Made by a program: the position numbers and the translations under genes. 56,521 bases of DNA, taken from assembly GCA_021793235.1 (NCBI GenBank), contig JAJYTD010000025.1:1-56521 (forward strand). The letters run 5' to 3'. This DNA is from Actinomycetes bacterium. Its GTDB lineage: Bacteria > Actinomycetota > Actinomycetes > Streptosporangiales > Streptosporangiaceae. The notes beneath the pieces were generated by a model. It worked only from the letters and a program-made list of their open reading frames with translations, did no database searches and was not told the DNA's origin. Positions within the stretch are counted from its first letter, which is position 1. Each line of letters begins with the position of its first letter. Shown here piece after piece: positions 41,863 to 50,421 of this stretch.

Positions 41863-42657
41863 TCACCCCGCGGCGACGTGGAACAGCGGCGACCGGCGCA
41901 ATGCCTCGCCGTAGCGCTGCAGGACCACCTCGGCGAGTTCCGGCGCGTCTCCCAGGGCGGGAGAGACGAAAGCGGCGCCCTCGGCAAAGGACTGGTCGGC
42001 GACCCGGTCGGCGAAGAATCCCGGCGCCAGCAGGTAGCCGGCGACCGCGACCCGACCGGCGCCGCGGTCGCGCAGCCGCGCCACGGCCTCACCCGGAGTG
42101 GGCGAGGCCGCTGATGCGTAGGCCGGCACCACCTGCCGCCACGGCTTCCGCACGGCCAGTTCCGCGGCCGCCTCCTCGATCACGGCGTTGGCCCCGGCAT
42201 CACTGGAGCCCGCGGAGGCCAGCACCAGCGCGGTGTCCGGTGCGGCCACCGCGCCGGCCTCGGTGATCCGGCGCTCCACCGCTTTCAGCAGCAGCGGATG
42301 CGGCCCGAGTGTGGCGGCGTAGCGGATCCGCAGCCACGGACAGGATGTCCGCACCCGCTCCAGTACCGCAGGCAGGTCGACCTTGCTGTGGTAAGCGGCG
42401 GTGAGCAGGGCGGGCAGGACCACGGCCTCGCCCGCGCCCTCCATGGCCACAGCGGTGAGGGCCTCCTCCGCCCCGGGGGATACATGGTCGAGGTAGGCGA
42501 CCCGTACGTCCAGGTCCGGGCGGAGCCGCCGCACCCGGTCGAAGATCTGCTCGACCGCGTGCGGTGAGCGCTCGTCCTGGCTGCCGTGGGCCACAGCGAT
42601 CAGCGGTACGCGGCCCCGCGCCCGCTCCGTGCCCGCCGCACCCCTTCCGCCGGTCAC
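41863..42657 (-). CDS. Sirohydrochlorin chelatase / CbiX-like protein
   Basis: This 264-residue protein of the CbiX/SirB superfamily inserts Fe or Co into sirohydrochlorin. It has the N-terminal VPLIAVAHGSQDERSPHAVE with the metal-site His, then VVLPALLTAAYHSKVDLP with the second His. The second half repeats the fold with SAGSSDAGAN, so it is the long, two-domain form. The operon context with a sirohaem-dependent sulfite reductase points to ferrochelation for sirohaem. The start GTG 42657 overlaps the cysH stop. Confidence 0.87.
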   Translation of the reverse strand: MTGGRGAAGTERARGRVPLIAVAHGSQDERSPHAVEQIFDRVRRLRPDLDVRVAYLDHVSPGAEEALTAVAMEGAGEAVVLPALLTAAYHSKVDLPAVLERVRTSCPWLRIRYAATLGPHPLLLKAVERRITEAGAVAAPDTALVLASAGSSDAGANAVIEEAAAELAVRKPWRQVVPAYASAASPTPGEAVARLRDRGAGRVAVAGYLLAPGFFADRVADQSFAEGAAFVSPALGDAPELAEVVLQRYGEALRRSPLFHVAAG

Positions 42658-43349
42658 AGGTGGATTCCGCACTCGATTTTGCCGGTGCCCGCCCAGCGGC
42701 CGCTACGGGGATCCTCGCCCGGCGCCACCGGCCGGGTGCAGGGCGCGCACCCGATGGAGGGGTATCCGTCGTACTGCAACGGGTTGACCAGGATGCCGTG
42801 CTCGGCCATGTAGGCGTCCACGTCCTCCTGGGTCCACCGCGCGATCGGGTTGACCTTGACCATCTTCTTGCGCGCGTCCCACTGCACCACCCCGACGTTG
42901 CGCCGAGTGGCGGCCTCGTCCCGGCGCAGCCCGCTGACCCAGGCGCTGTAGGGCTCCAGCGCGCGCTGCAGCGGTTCGACCTTGCGCAGGTGGCAGCAGA
43001 TGTTGGGGTTGCGGCCGTGCAGCCGCGGGCCGAGGTCGCGGTCCTGCTCTGGCACCGTGCGCAGCGGTGTGACATTGATCAGGTTGATCGGGTAGACCGC
43101 CGCAACGGCATCGCGGGTGCCGATCGTCTCGGCGAAGTGGTAACCGGTGTCCAAAAAGATCACGTCGATGCCCGGGACGACCGTGGAGACCAGGTCGACC
43201 ATGAGGGCATCGGCCATGGAGGAGGTCATGCACAGGCGGTCGCCGAAGGTGTCGGCGGCCCACTGGATGATCTCGCGGGCGCTCGCCTCTTCCAGCTCCG
43301 CCGCAGCCCGCTCCGCCAGGACCCTGCCGTCGTCCAGTGTGACGTTCAT
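42654..43349 (-). CDS. cysH: Assimilatory adenylyl-sulfate (APS) reductase
   Basis: This 231-residue enzyme reduces activated sulfate to sulfite with thioredoxin. The four iron-sulfur cysteines (Cys118-Cys119 and Cys201/Cys204) and the catalytic Cys227 in KIECGIHL are all there. The paired-Cys cluster marks the APS-using type rather than the PAPS-using type lacking the cluster. FLDTGYHFAET and SGLRRDEAATR are conserved. ATG 43349 overlaps the stop of the zinc-ribbon gene (ATGA), and its own stop overlaps the chelatase start. Sulfate adenylyltransferase is not in the window. Confidence 0.93.
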   Translation of the reverse strand: MNVTLDDGRVLAERAAAELEEASAREIIQWAADTFGDRLCMTSSMADALMVDLVSTVVPGIDVIFLDTGYHFAETIGTRDAVAAVYPINLINVTPLRTVPEQDRDLGPRLHGRNPNICCHLRKVEPLQRALEPYSAWVSGLRRDEAATRRNVGVVQWDARKKMVKVNPIARWTQEDVDAYMAEHGILVNPLQYDGYPSIGCAPCTRPVAPGEDPRSGRWAGTGKIECGIHL

Positions 43350-43571: not shown

Positions 43572-45257
43572 TCATTTGAGATCGCTGTCGTCGGCCCGCG
43601 CCACCCAGGACGCGAACGCCTCCCCGTCCTGCTTCTGCGCCAGGAAGCGGCGCAGGACCCGTTCGACGTAGTCGGGCAGTTCCTCGGCGGTCGTCTTCAG
43701 GCCGCGCACCTTGCGGCCGAACGAGGCGTTGAGCCCCATGCCGCCGCCCAAGTGCACCTGGTAGCCCTCGACCTGGTCGCCGTTGGCGTCGGTGACGAGC
43801 TGGCCCTTCAGGCCGATGTCGGCGACCTGGATGCGGGCGCAGGAGTTGGGGCAGCCGTTGATGTTGATGGTGACCGGTTCGGGGAAATCGGGCAGGCGGC
43901 GCTCCAGCTCGTCGATGAGGGAGGACCCGCGGGACTTGGTCTCGACGATGGCGAGCTTGCAGAATTCGATGCCGGTGCAGGCCATGGTCTGGCGTCGGAA
44001 CACGCTTGGGCGCACCTGCAGGTCCTCGGCCTCCAGGGCGGCGACGATGGAGTCGACCCGGTCGTCGGTGATGTCGAGGATGACGAGTTTCTGGTCGGGG
44101 GTGGTGCGGATCCGGTCCGAGCCGTGCGCCTCGGCGATGTCGGCGATACGGGCGAGCTTGGTGCCGGAGACACGGCCGACCCTGGGGGTGAACCCGACGT
44201 AGTTGCGGCCGTCGCGCTGGCGGTGCACGCCGATGTGGTCGCGCCTGGTTCCGGGGTCGAGCTCGGGTTCGGGGCCGTCGGGAAGGGCGTAGCCGAGGTA
44301 CTCCTTCTCCAGGACCTCGCGGAATTTCGCCGCACCCCAGTCCTTGATCAGGAACTTGATCCGGGCGCGGTGGCGCAGCCGCCGGTAGCCGTAGTCGCGG
44401 AAGATCGAGGTGACCCCGGCCCAGACTTCGCTGACCTGGTCGGGGCGGACAAAGGCGCCCAGGCGCTGGGCGAACATGGGGTTGGTCGACAGCCCGCCGC
44501 CGACGAACAGGTCGAAACCCGGGGCGCCGTCCGGGCCGGTCACCCCGACGAACGCCACGTCATTGATCTCGTGGTTGACGCAGTGGGAGGCGCAGCCGGA
44601 GATCGAGGTCTTGAACTTGCGCGGCAGGTTGGAGAACAGGGGACTGCCGATGTGGTCGTCGTGAACCTGGCGGATCTGCGGCGCGGCGTCGATGACCTCG
44701 TCCTCGGCGACCCCCGCGAGCGGACAGCCCATGATCACTCGGGGCGTGTCGCCGCAGGCCTCTGTGGAGGACAGGCCCACGGCCTCCAGCTTCTCCCAGA
44801 TCCGCGGTACGTCCTCGATGCGGACCCAGTGGAGCTGCACATTCTGCCGGTTGGTGATATCGGCGGTGTCGCGGCCGTACGCCGTGGAGATCTCGGCGAT
44901 CGTACGCAGCTGCGCGGCGCTGAGCTGGCCGCCGTCGATCCGTACCCGCAGCATGAAGTAGCGGTCGTCGAGCTCTTCGGGTCCCAGTACGGCGGTCTTT
45001 CCGCCGTCGATGCCGGGGGCGCGCTGCGTGTAGAGCCCGTACCAGCGGAATCGGCCGCGCAGATCAGCGGGGTCGATGGAGTCGAAGCCGGCCTTGGAGT
45101 AGATGTCGATGATGCGCTGGCGGACGTTGAGCCCGTCGTCGTTCTTCTTGTTCTCTTCGTTCTTGTTCAGCGGTTCCCGGTAGCCGAGGGCCCACTGGCC
45201 CTCGCCTCGGCGCGGCCGGGACGCCTTGGTGCCGGTCGATGCGGATGTGGGAGGCAT
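43572..45257 (-). CDS. sirA: Sirohaem-dependent sulfite reductase (ferredoxin type)
   Basis: This 561-residue enzyme reduces sulfite to sulfide with ferredoxin. The [4Fe-4S]-sirohaem cysteines are in MACTGIEFCKLA and NGCPNSCARIQVAD. The first half has the ferrodoxin-like repeats (TNRQNVQLHWVRIEDVPRIW). It resembles mycobacterial SirA/NirA and Streptomyces SirA, with WYGLY and STEACGD in the region of their Tyr-Cys crosslink. ATG 45257 has GGAGG eight bases before it; the open frame to 45341 is not needed. It heads the minus-strand sulfur operon. Confidence 0.93.
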   Translation of the reverse strand: MPPTSASTGTKASRPRRGEGQWALGYREPLNKNEENKKNDDGLNVRQRIIDIYSKAGFDSIDPADLRGRFRWYGLYTQRAPGIDGGKTAVLGPEELDDRYFMLRVRIDGGQLSAAQLRTIAEISTAYGRDTADITNRQNVQLHWVRIEDVPRIWEKLEAVGLSSTEACGDTPRVIMGCPLAGVAEDEVIDAAPQIRQVHDDHIGSPLFSNLPRKFKTSISGCASHCVNHEINDVAFVGVTGPDGAPGFDLFVGGGLSTNPMFAQRLGAFVRPDQVSEVWAGVTSIFRDYGYRRLRHRARIKFLIKDWGAAKFREVLEKEYLGYALPDGPEPELDPGTRRDHIGVHRQRDGRNYVGFTPRVGRVSGTKLARIADIAEAHGSDRIRTTPDQKLVILDITDDRVDSIVAALEAEDLQVRPSVFRRQTMACTGIEFCKLAIVETKSRGSSLIDELERRLPDFPEPVTININGCPNSCARIQVADIGLKGQLVTDANGDQVEGYQVHLGGGMGLNASFGRKVRGLKTTAEELPDYVERVLRRFLAQKQDGEAFASWVARADDSDLK

Positions 45258-45431
45258 CGCGGGGTCCTCCGTGCGGTTCGCGGGGCGCGTGGACCGACGC
45301 GCACCACGGCAGGACTCCGCTTCCGGCACGTCGTTGTGCACGGGATACGGAAGTGCTGGAGAAGTGGCGGATCACGTCGGCGCCGCTTGCGCCCCAGAAG
45401 GTGGGCGGAAATGACAGATGTGGTGGCGGAC
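45258..45431 (-). promoter_or_regulatory. Leader region between the leader peptide and sirA
   Basis: These 174 bp separate the stop of the tiny leader ORF from the sirA ATG. The stretch has short inverted repeats such as CCGTGCACAACGACGTGCCGG-like arms but no single strong terminator that I can see. Its length and place fit a translation-coupled attenuation region. Confidence 0.35.
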
Positions 45432-45500
45432 TTAACCGACGTTGCGACAGATGGCGCTGCGGACCCGAAGGAAGTCCACGTGCCGGCGCACGCAGAGCAT
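45432..45500 (-). CDS. Putative 22-residue sulfur-responsive leader peptide
   Basis: On the minus strand an ATG at 45500 opens a 22-codon frame starting MLCVRRHVDFLRV and ending SAICRNVG before TAA. The RRHVD-hydrophobic-R core and a nearby late Cys are the pattern I recall in the small leader peptides found upstream of sulfur-metabolism genes in actinomycetes. It has Cys codons at 3 (TGC) and 18 (TGT, a rare codon here). It precedes the sirA operon by 174 bp. An in-frame ATG at 45521 would lengthen it by seven residues. No good ribosome site is visible for either start. Confidence 0.6.
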   Translation of the reverse strand: MLCVRRHVDFLRVRSAICRNVG

Positions 45501-45709
45501 CGGGTCAAGGGCAGCGATCATGTCAACGACAATGGCACGCCGCGGCGCGCCTGTCCAGACGCAGCGCGCCTGCAACGGCCGTGAAGCCCATCACGTAAGC
45601 AGAACCTAACTCATCGGTGAAGTGCGGAATTAAGTCACGGTTCGCCATCGAAACGGACATGTTCGCCGTGGTCCGGGCCTTAAACCGGTCTTTGCGCGCC
45701 GCCGCCCCT

Positions 45710-49668: not shown

Positions 49669-50421
49669 ATGTCCCATACAGCACGCGCGGTCGGTGTGGC
49701 CGCTGCGGGGCTGCTGGCCGCCGGATTCCACACGGCACCGGCGTTCGCGGACACCACGGACGAGACCTCGTCTGAGGCTGTCGATTCCCCCGTACAGCAG
49801 GAAACGGAAACGGTGCCGCGGTCGGAGTCCGCACCGATCAAGGTCGACCTTGGCGTCGGCCTTGAATCCGGCATATCGGCGCCGGCCAACGTGACCCCGG
49901 ACGCCCCGGGGGACCCCACACCTCCGGGGCCTGAGCCGGACCCCACGGACCCGGGTGATCCGGGTGATCCGGGCGATCCTGGTGACCCCGGTGATCCTGG
50001 TGATCCTGGTGATCCCGGCGATCCGGGCGATCCCGGCGATCCTGGTGACCCCGGTGATCCTGGTGACCCGGGCGATCCTGGTGACCCGGGTGACCCGGGT
50101 GACCCGGGTGATCCGGGTGATCCGGGCGATCCTGGTGATCCCGGTGACCCCGACGATCCCGGTGACCCTGGTGACGGCGACGACCAGAAGCCCGGCGGTG
50201 ACGAGGGCGACTCCGGTGGCGAAGACTCGGACAAGGACTCCGACGACTCGGTCGAGGACTCCGAGGAGGGCGACAACGCAGCCGCTCCCGGGTCCGACAG
50301 CGGCGGGGATCTCCCGGTCACGGGCGTCGACCTGTCCGGCTTCGTGCTCGGAGGCGTACTGGCCACCGGTGTTGGCGCAGTGACCCTCTACGCCGCTCGG
50401 CGGCGTCCCCAGGCGCAGTAG
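49669..50421 (+). CDS. LPXTG surface protein with collagen-like Gly-Asp-Pro repeat
   Basis: This 250-residue cell-wall protein has a signal peptide ending APAFA at residue 27 and an acidic linker. An unbroken run of 22 Gly-Asp-Pro triplets (residues 96-161) follows, then an Asp/Glu/Ser-rich spacer. The sorting signal is LPVTG (215-219), a hydrophobic helix and an Arg tail. A sortase should link it to peptidoglycan. The triplets place Gly at every third residue as in collagen, but with Asp at X and Pro at Y. AAGGAG lies upstream of the ATG. It follows the propeller-like gene by 26 bp. Confidence 0.85.
   Translation: MSHTARAVGVAAAGLLAAGFHTAPAFADTTDETSSEAVDSPVQQETETVPRSESAPIKVDLGVGLESGISAPANVTPDAPGDPTPPGPEPDPTDPGDPGDPGDPGDPGDPGDPGDPGDPGDPGDPGDPGDPGDPGDPGDPGDPGDPGDPGDPGDPGDPGDPDDPGDPGDGDDQKPGGDEGDSGGEDSDKDSDDSVEDSEEGDNAAAPGSDSGGDLPVTGVDLSGFVLGGVLATGVGAVTLYAARRRPQAQ
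49954..50151 (+). repeat. 22 x 9-bp repeat encoding Gly-Asp-Pro
   Basis: The tract is 198 bp of nonanucleotide units such as GGTGATCCG, GGCGATCCT and GGTGACCCC. Synonymous changes differ from unit to unit while the tripeptide never changes within the run. It is followed by one Asp-Asp-Pro and another Gly-Asp-Pro. Such a tract is prone to gain and loss of units. Confidence 0.95.

Follow-up and report, generated by a model that had tools for sequence, protein, structure and literature searches.

The short minus-strand reading frame ahead of the sulfite reductase gene sirA in the window, i.e., the whole stretch of 56,521 nucleotides that was analysed, is on the evidence of sequence comparisons a real gene with a conserved start at ATG 45521. 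It probably (estimated probability about 0.7) acts in cis on the sirA-cysH operon as a leaderless attenuator that responds to cysteine. At the level of sequence, comparison with relatives demonstrates a frame with constraint in its family, a leaderless geometry, a fixed TGT codon and a helix in the family. The genes, the leader and its putative sensor codon are located as follows:

43572 to 45257, minus strand: sirA, 561 aa, a relative of Mycobacterium tuberculosis NirA and, by our reading, a ferredoxin-dependent sulfite reductase
42654 to 43349, minus strand: cysH-like phosphoadenylyl-sulfate reductase, downstream of sirA (NF002537, 267 bits against a cut-off of 154)
45432 to 45521, minus strand: leader ORF MIAALDPMLCVRRHVDFLRVRSAICRNVG, 29 codons, putatively leaderless; the 22-codon form starts at 45500
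45447 to 45449, minus strand: conserved Cys codon TGT, the putative sensor, which is nearly always TGT in the leaders of relatives

The best solved relative of the sirA protein was 1zj8 (E 4e-218, residues 13-561), which is entitled probable ferredoxin-dependent nitrite reductase NirA; we take NirA of M. tuberculosis to be a sulfite reductase. Against the 11 NCBIfam models listed for nitrite and sulfite reductases, all scores of sirA were below the cut-offs. The closest named relatives of the protein were those of Marinactinospora thermotolerans (87%) and Streptomonospora mangrovi (86%), followed by other Streptomonospora and Nocardiopsis. The leader is located upstream of a sulfur operon (sirA, cysH), as polycysteine attenuators are. 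The plus strand of the window encodes, at 49669-50421, a protein that looks secreted and contains a long GDP repeat; its LPVTG motif near the end is presumably like that of a sortase substrate.

On the minus strand, positions 45500-45432 encode MLCVRRHVDFLRVRSAICRNVG followed by a stop, i.e., 22 codons with Cys at 3 and 18, Cys18 being TGT, and 174 nt separate the leader stop from the sirA ATG (45257). Re-reading of the sequence confirmed these features of the original prediction, except for its start codon (45500): the conserved start is the upstream in-frame ATG 45521, which lengthens the leader to 29 codons (MIAALDPMLCVRRHVD...). Peptides of relatives start near this ATG (MIAALDPML.., MPADPLL.., MSGTGIAL..); at the position of the 22-codon start many relatives have Leu, and several are without any start codon there. 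The start was found 9-11 codons ahead of RRHVD in 97/108 leaders having a -10-like box. One Cys is conserved, 9 residues past the Asp of RRHVD; the two Cys of the window leader are separated by 14 codons and form no run. At the position of Cys3, V is present in 97/121 leaders and C in 14/121, and all 14 belong to the window's own clade of 21. Weight had originally been laid on both Cys codons, of which the second is conserved, as TGT, and the first is not. The caution voiced at that time, that this may not be simple Cys-run attenuation, was right.

With a motif search, 121 of the 130 fetched loci proved to have the leader frame ahead of sirA, as did 79 loci in an overlapping set of 80 named ones. 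The 130 loci consisted of 30 from a search for relatives and 100 picked by hand among the matches listed, spread over families; they represent part of the genomes carrying sirA, and 128 of them had at least 360 bases. The search pattern specifies [RL][HA][VI]D plus the residue before it, five residues in all, and a Cys near the conserved place, which need not be TGT. A leader lacking this pattern is scored as a miss; the misses number 9/130 (L030, L062, L078, L110, L121, L123, L124, L133 and L138), and L030 and L124 among them are contig ends. In L139, one of the 121, the Cys is shifted one codon further. In L123 and L138, which have no sirA leader, a leader on the other strand (L285 and L242) precedes a divergent gene with a cysH-like start.

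Substitution patterns were determined over 14 core codons. In the window's family (f1) together with its neighbour f2 (57 sequences), pN/pS was 0.17 in frame versus 1.99 and 6.26 in the other two frames. In-frame values were 0.15 in the window clade (n=21), 0.11 in f20 (n=20), 0.34 in f21 (n=10) and 0.47 across all 121 leaders; the other two frames gave 1.3 to 9.7 in all groups. Five of the 14 codons are those demanded by the motif search. With these five removed, f1 and f2 yielded 0.39 in frame, compared with 2.36 and 3.07 out of frame, the window clade 0.31, f21 0.62, all 121 leaders 0.73, and f20 1.09, the last value being uninformative because few changes exist there. Without the motif codons, the constraint is still frame-specific in the window's family and weaker outside it. 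A chance origin of the short frame within a structured 5' UTR can hardly be believed: it is short, and it scores under both relevant NCBIfam cut-offs (see below), but the frame-specific substitutions in the window's family and the class-wide recurrence contradict this explanation. These comparisons lend good support to the original prediction that the sulfur operon has a leader peptide with a putative regulatory role, and family matches in other genomes bore out its statement that RRHVD-type leaders recur ahead of sulfur genes.

The peptide in the window's family is conserved beyond the nucleotide level, as would be expected of an arrest peptide, and a contribution of this kind fits the sequence data. 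In the 121 leaders, residues beyond the search motif are conserved as well, i.e., R at offset 7 (113), S at 10 (113), A at 11 (99) and L three places ahead of the motif (120), though control by a single codon would not require any peptide motif. As an alternative, the conserved nascent chain could itself stall the ribosome in response to a small molecule, such as cysteine or another sulfur metabolite, the Cys codon being the stall site and not a sensor of starvation. The motif is common to leaders of different genes, and modelling given in the accessible part of PMC1183508 indicates that, with a single regulatory codon, sensitivity has to be paid for with low read-through. Nevertheless, the genes that follow suggest a role in sulfur supply, where Cys-tRNA sensing would be the simpler signal, and arrest in place of starvation sensing is regarded as somewhat doubtful.

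The cysteine attenuator proposed here would be transcribed without a leader of its own. Promoter-like elements were read from the sequence at the following positions:

45552 to 45557, minus strand: -35-like TGGACA, 17 nt ahead of the -10-like hexamer
45529 to 45534, minus strand: -10-like CATTGT, 7 nt ahead of the ATG of the upstream ORF (uORF)

By eye, TGGAC(A) was found at the matching place in many of the relatives listed. The pattern NANNNT occurs 6-7 nt ahead of the uORF start in 108/119 leaders (those with a start in range, out of 121 examined), compared with 4.4% at random upstream positions. Shine-Dalgarno-like motifs are present ahead of the uORF start in 8/119 leaders and ahead of sirA in 107/119. 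A scan for consensus promoters yielded nothing in this leader region; one terminator-like site was found upstream of the uORF, with 0.5 expected by chance. We infer that the leader transcript is leaderless, with its 5' end at the A of ATG 45521. In many loci of the sister clade (L011-L027), a direct repeat TGGAC...TTGGACAT was seen by eye to overlap the -35 region; it could be an activator site.

The conserved Cys codon is TGT in 120/121 sirA leaders, the exception being L119 with TGC, and in 79/79 named sirA leaders. The other Cys codons of the 121 peptides are 51 TGC and 11 TGT (Fisher 3e-33 for conserved versus other codons, a statistic that ignores relatedness), and TGT is rare in the sirA genes of the 80 named loci, which contain 584 TGC and 32 TGT (616 Cys codons). 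The same was observed in the wider family. Matches to NF042934 at E<=0.001 were present in 50/60 genomes of the class, with 123 matches listed and 98 of them above the cut-off. Ninety of these 98 were read and gave 88 TGT, 1 TGC (L302) and 1 stop (L292); the remaining 8, which belong to the sirA set or the own genome, all have TGT. Few of the 25 matches below the cut-off were read, among them L033 from the own genome, with TGT. Judged by the N-terminal sequence of the next gene, 7/90 family matches are sirA leaders and 83 are not; the other next genes were, by eye, sulfurtransferases, cysH, cysteine synthase, transporters and more. Cys codons 7 places before the conserved one in the 90 peptides are TGC in 32 cases and TGT in 3, and those 2 places before it TGC in 21 and TGT in 4, in a tally which omits last-position Cys and the loci L225 and L244. 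In L292 a TGA stop takes the place of the conserved Cys codon; this leader copy is perhaps decayed. When 119 genomes were sampled across the phylum, matches at E<=1e-4 were present in 6, all from the same class, which, judging by the named relatives, would be the Actinomycetes.

In the own genome, four further leaders of this type were found, all with TGT, making five with the sirA leader; the search gave 8 matches, of which 3 with E above 0.5 were dropped. They precede a 2-oxoacid:acceptor oxidoreductase, an FMN-reductase-like gene, a sulfurtransferase pair and an O-acetylhomoserine sulfhydrylase. The alpha subunit of the 2-oxoacid:acceptor oxidoreductase has a leader in the own genome (L032, C45) and, by N-terminal sequence, in the relatives L249 and L308; the set is therefore wider than sulfur assimilation. 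Enzymes of this type work with Fe-S clusters, and the leader is perhaps linked to these.

Several explanations for the choice of TGT were considered. A by-product of low GC3 was rejected, with U-ending two-fold codons amounting to 17% in the same peptides. A mere demand for base pairing of the fixed U is unlikely, because partner and helix differ between families whereas TGT is constant; in single clades it may still play a part, as by eye some TGT codons of f21 could pair. No UGU-specific tRNA was seen: both tRNA-Cys genes listed, among loci meant to cover 59 tRNA matches, have the anticodon GCA. UGU is therefore presumably read by wobble, and its choice cannot come from selective charging of isoacceptors. 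The base following the conserved TGT in the 121 sirA leaders is C in 92, A in 15, T in 14 and G in none; G at this place does occur in the family, because the next residue in L268 is Ala. The sulfur-containing modification ms2i6A37 is present in tRNA-Cys, and a miaB homologue was found in the genome (470.6 bits, cut-off 355.3). Tentatively, and with more doubt than confidence, RRHVDxxRVxSAxC(UGU), a unit conserved across the class, could be taken as one sensor module with selected codon identity, in which the nascent chain in the tunnel makes the wobble-read UGU a sensitive detector. UGU may in this case exploit slow wobble decoding, or the loss of ms2i6A37 on tRNA-Cys. If that loss is sensed, the leader would read sulfur status directly, and if codon identity belongs to the sensor, a synonymous change of TGT to TGC should alter regulation. 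The theory of codon choice in attenuators, according to the accessible part of PMC1183508, rests on different isoacceptors; it cannot apply here, because one tRNA species reads both Cys codons.

The RNA between the conserved codon and sirA contains the following elements:

45436 to 45443, minus strand: arm 1, AACGTCGG, inside the uORF and 3 nt past TGT, predicted to pair with arm 2
45400 to 45431, minus strand: C-rich, G-poor stretch directly past the uORF stop
45390 to 45407, minus strand: small hairpin CGCCC...GGGCG between arms 1 and 2, by eye present in many relatives
45374 to 45381, minus strand: arm 2, GCCGACGT, which has complementarity to both arm 1 and arm 3
45294 to 45299, minus strand: arm 3, CGTCGG, with which arm 2 could pair instead of arm 1, as it does in the predicted MFE fold
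45263 to 45270, minus strand: Shine-Dalgarno site of sirA, GGAGGACC, which could pair with GGTCC at 45291-45295

Arm 2 is located about 50 nt downstream of the leader stop. In 119/121 leaders 1-4 codons lie between the conserved Cys and the stop, and a pausing ribosome would therefore cover arm 1. The segment following TGT matched its own downstream region better than shuffles did, at p<=0.05, in 23/112 loci, compared with 1/112 for the segment preceding it; the match between arms 1 and 2 of the window does not reach significance by itself (z 1.32, p 0.11). When tails were swapped between relatives, 0 of 2000 permutations reached the own match in the window clade (n=21) and in f1 and f2 (n=56; own match of arm 1 to the downstream region 20.0, swapped 16.4), versus 736/2000 and 367/2000, respectively, for the control segment before UGU. 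The signal was absent in f20 (1924/2000) and in the pooled other families (1264/2000), and it was not significant in f21 (280/2000). In alignment A2 (18 sequences) 87% of the cells pair, and 30-46% in slid versions; pair 17/109 is AU in 8 sequences, GC in 8 and other in 2, a change which may represent one inherited event. In the sister-clade alignment A1 (24 sequences) the helix of arms 1 and 2 is 94% paired, with no two-sided changes, and that of arms 2 and 3 has 82% paired cells and 6 two-sided cells. By shuffles, arm 2:arm 3 reached p<=0.05 in only 5/45 loci (window z 0.89, p 0.20). Alongside this helix, GCGCCCC at 45282-45288 pairs with GGGGCGC at 45389-45395 in the predicted MFE fold. The fold from the uORF ATG to the sirA ATG was better than 198/200 shuffles (z -2.4), and that without most of the uORF better than 192/200 (z -1.8).

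Pairing of arm 1 with arm 2 is thus supported by sequence covariation in f1 and f2 only. The original prediction had named covarying stems as a check, and these were found for arm 1:arm 2 in f1 and f2. A single RNA structure for the whole class was rejected, as the signal is confined to f1 and f2. Searches of Rfam at gathering scores gave 0 matches in the window; with relaxed limits the opposite strand gave two chance-level matches (E 1.7 and 3.9), both far below gathering scores.

From these data the following course of events is proposed. Transcription would start at the A of ATG 45521, and ribosomes would synthesize the 29-codon peptide. When Cys-tRNA is scarce, a ribosome would wait with the single conserved UGU (45449-45447) in its A site, and the conserved nascent chain RRHVDFLRVRSAI in the exit tunnel would probably lengthen this pause. 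The parked ribosome would cover arm 1, which then could not pair with arm 2; free arm 2 could pair with arm 3, the mRNA would stay readable, and sirA-cysH would be on. With plentiful cysteine, the ribosome would add four residues, stop and leave. After its release the helix of arms 1 and 2 could form, C-rich RNA would become exposed, and sirA expression should fall. This could be brought about by termination, by Rho, or by a hidden Shine-Dalgarno site. Regarding intrinsic termination, a T-run was present past arm 2 in 9/26 scored sister sequences versus 2.8% of control windows, and in 0/19 scored sequences of the window clade.

Rho-dependent attenuation as in tnaC, where the ribosome near the stop would hide a C-rich rut site and its release would permit Rho to terminate before sirA, is a possibility, toward which we are on balance disinclined. 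The RNA past the stop is C-rich and G-poor: C minus G was +0.28 in the first 20 nt and +0.15 over 80 nt versus +0.02 upstream (109 leaders), with 17/19 family means above the upstream control over 80 nt (Wilcoxon p 2e-4). The bias is spread wider than the helix of arms 1 and 2, and it is a matter of composition only. Rho was also proposed for mycobacterial cys leaders in PMC1262725, which in its accessible part calls its own prediction rather weak. However, C bias alone is weak evidence for a rut site, in f21 the 80-nt value is not above the control (0.094 versus 0.114), and the covarying helices in f1 suggest that structure matters too.

In a purely translational attenuator, stalling would free the ribosome-binding site of sirA, and polycysteine leaders of M. 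smegmatis have been described as translational attenuators. In the sister clade GCGCGTCC:GGACGCGC could pair across the Shine-Dalgarno site (L017, p 0.010; L012, p 0.020), and the window has GGTCC:GGACC. Yet such pairing reached p<=0.05 in only 8/120 loci, none of them in the window clade, and a purely translational mode appears unlikely.

Concerning known relatives, the window leader, which is proposed to be a cysteine attenuator, most likely works, as far as sequence comparison can tell, like the NF042934 and NF042936 peptides of Actinomycetes. We do not assign it to either family because it is below both cut-offs: NF042936 (Ms4527A family Cys-rich leader peptide) gave 19.8 bits for the 22-aa and 16.9 bits for the 29-aa form (cut-off 45), and NF042934 (putative leader peptide, cis_reg_atten) 18.9 and 21.3 bits, and 19.9 in the genome search (cut-off 27). 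With NF042936 it shares the RRHVD core (E 4e-4 over 18 residues), but the end is Cys-rich there, whereas the window leader has one conserved Cys; Ms4527 is presumably sirA of M. smegmatis. With NF042934 it has the core and the conserved last Cys in common. One f20 sirA leader, of the type present in the named Streptomyces loci, passes NF042934 (32.9 over 27), and one Ms4527A-like f6 sirA leader (43.2 bits versus 45) has TGT for all four Cys codons.

Canestrari 2020 reportedly described cysteine-responsive attenuation via polycysteine leaderless ORFs in mycobacteria. The leaders described here resemble these in their leaderless geometry (108/119 leaders, from sequence), in the sulfur genes and in the short ORF just upstream; the Cys run of the mycobacterial attenuators is missing in the window leader. 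The tnaC leader of E. coli has a short peptide, a pause near the stop and C-rich RNA after it, which would be similar if the output were by Rho; it is no relative of the window leader and responds to another signal. An attenuator of the trp type needs a run of control codons and a U-run terminator, unlike the window leader with its single conserved codon and no U-run past arm 2 in its clade. Canestrari 2020 is cited in the accessible text of PMC13236596 and PMC9094748. The accessible part of PMC1262725 (2005) predicts that cys operons of Mycobacterium and P. acnes are preceded by leader ORFs containing Cys runs; these leaders likewise are short ORFs before cys genes with Cys near the stop and no conserved terminator hairpin reported, but they have Cys-codon runs instead of one conserved Cys and a covarying helix. 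According to the accessible part of PMC8632094, uORFC-8-2 of cysS in Rhodobacterales is also a uORF-based attenuator with conserved Cys codons, though with two tandem Cys codons, UGC dominant, and a U-run consistent with an intrinsic terminator. In a reannotation of S. lividans (PMC8079986), 8 leader peptides are named, none of which is called Cys-dependent in the accessible text. A text search for RRHVD produced nothing relevant by title and abstract. In the literature searched, which is part of the whole, no report of a fixed UGU in these leaders was found, which is no proof of novelty; judged by this literature, three features seem to be novel, namely the fixed UGU, the form with a single Cys, and the helix that covaries.

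With this analysis, a likely control element is assigned to the stretch before a core sulfur operon. Across the many genomes sampled, the members of a family listed as putative leader peptides have one near-fixed codon while the codons next to it vary. This bears on synonymous codon choice in attenuators where one tRNA species reads both codons.
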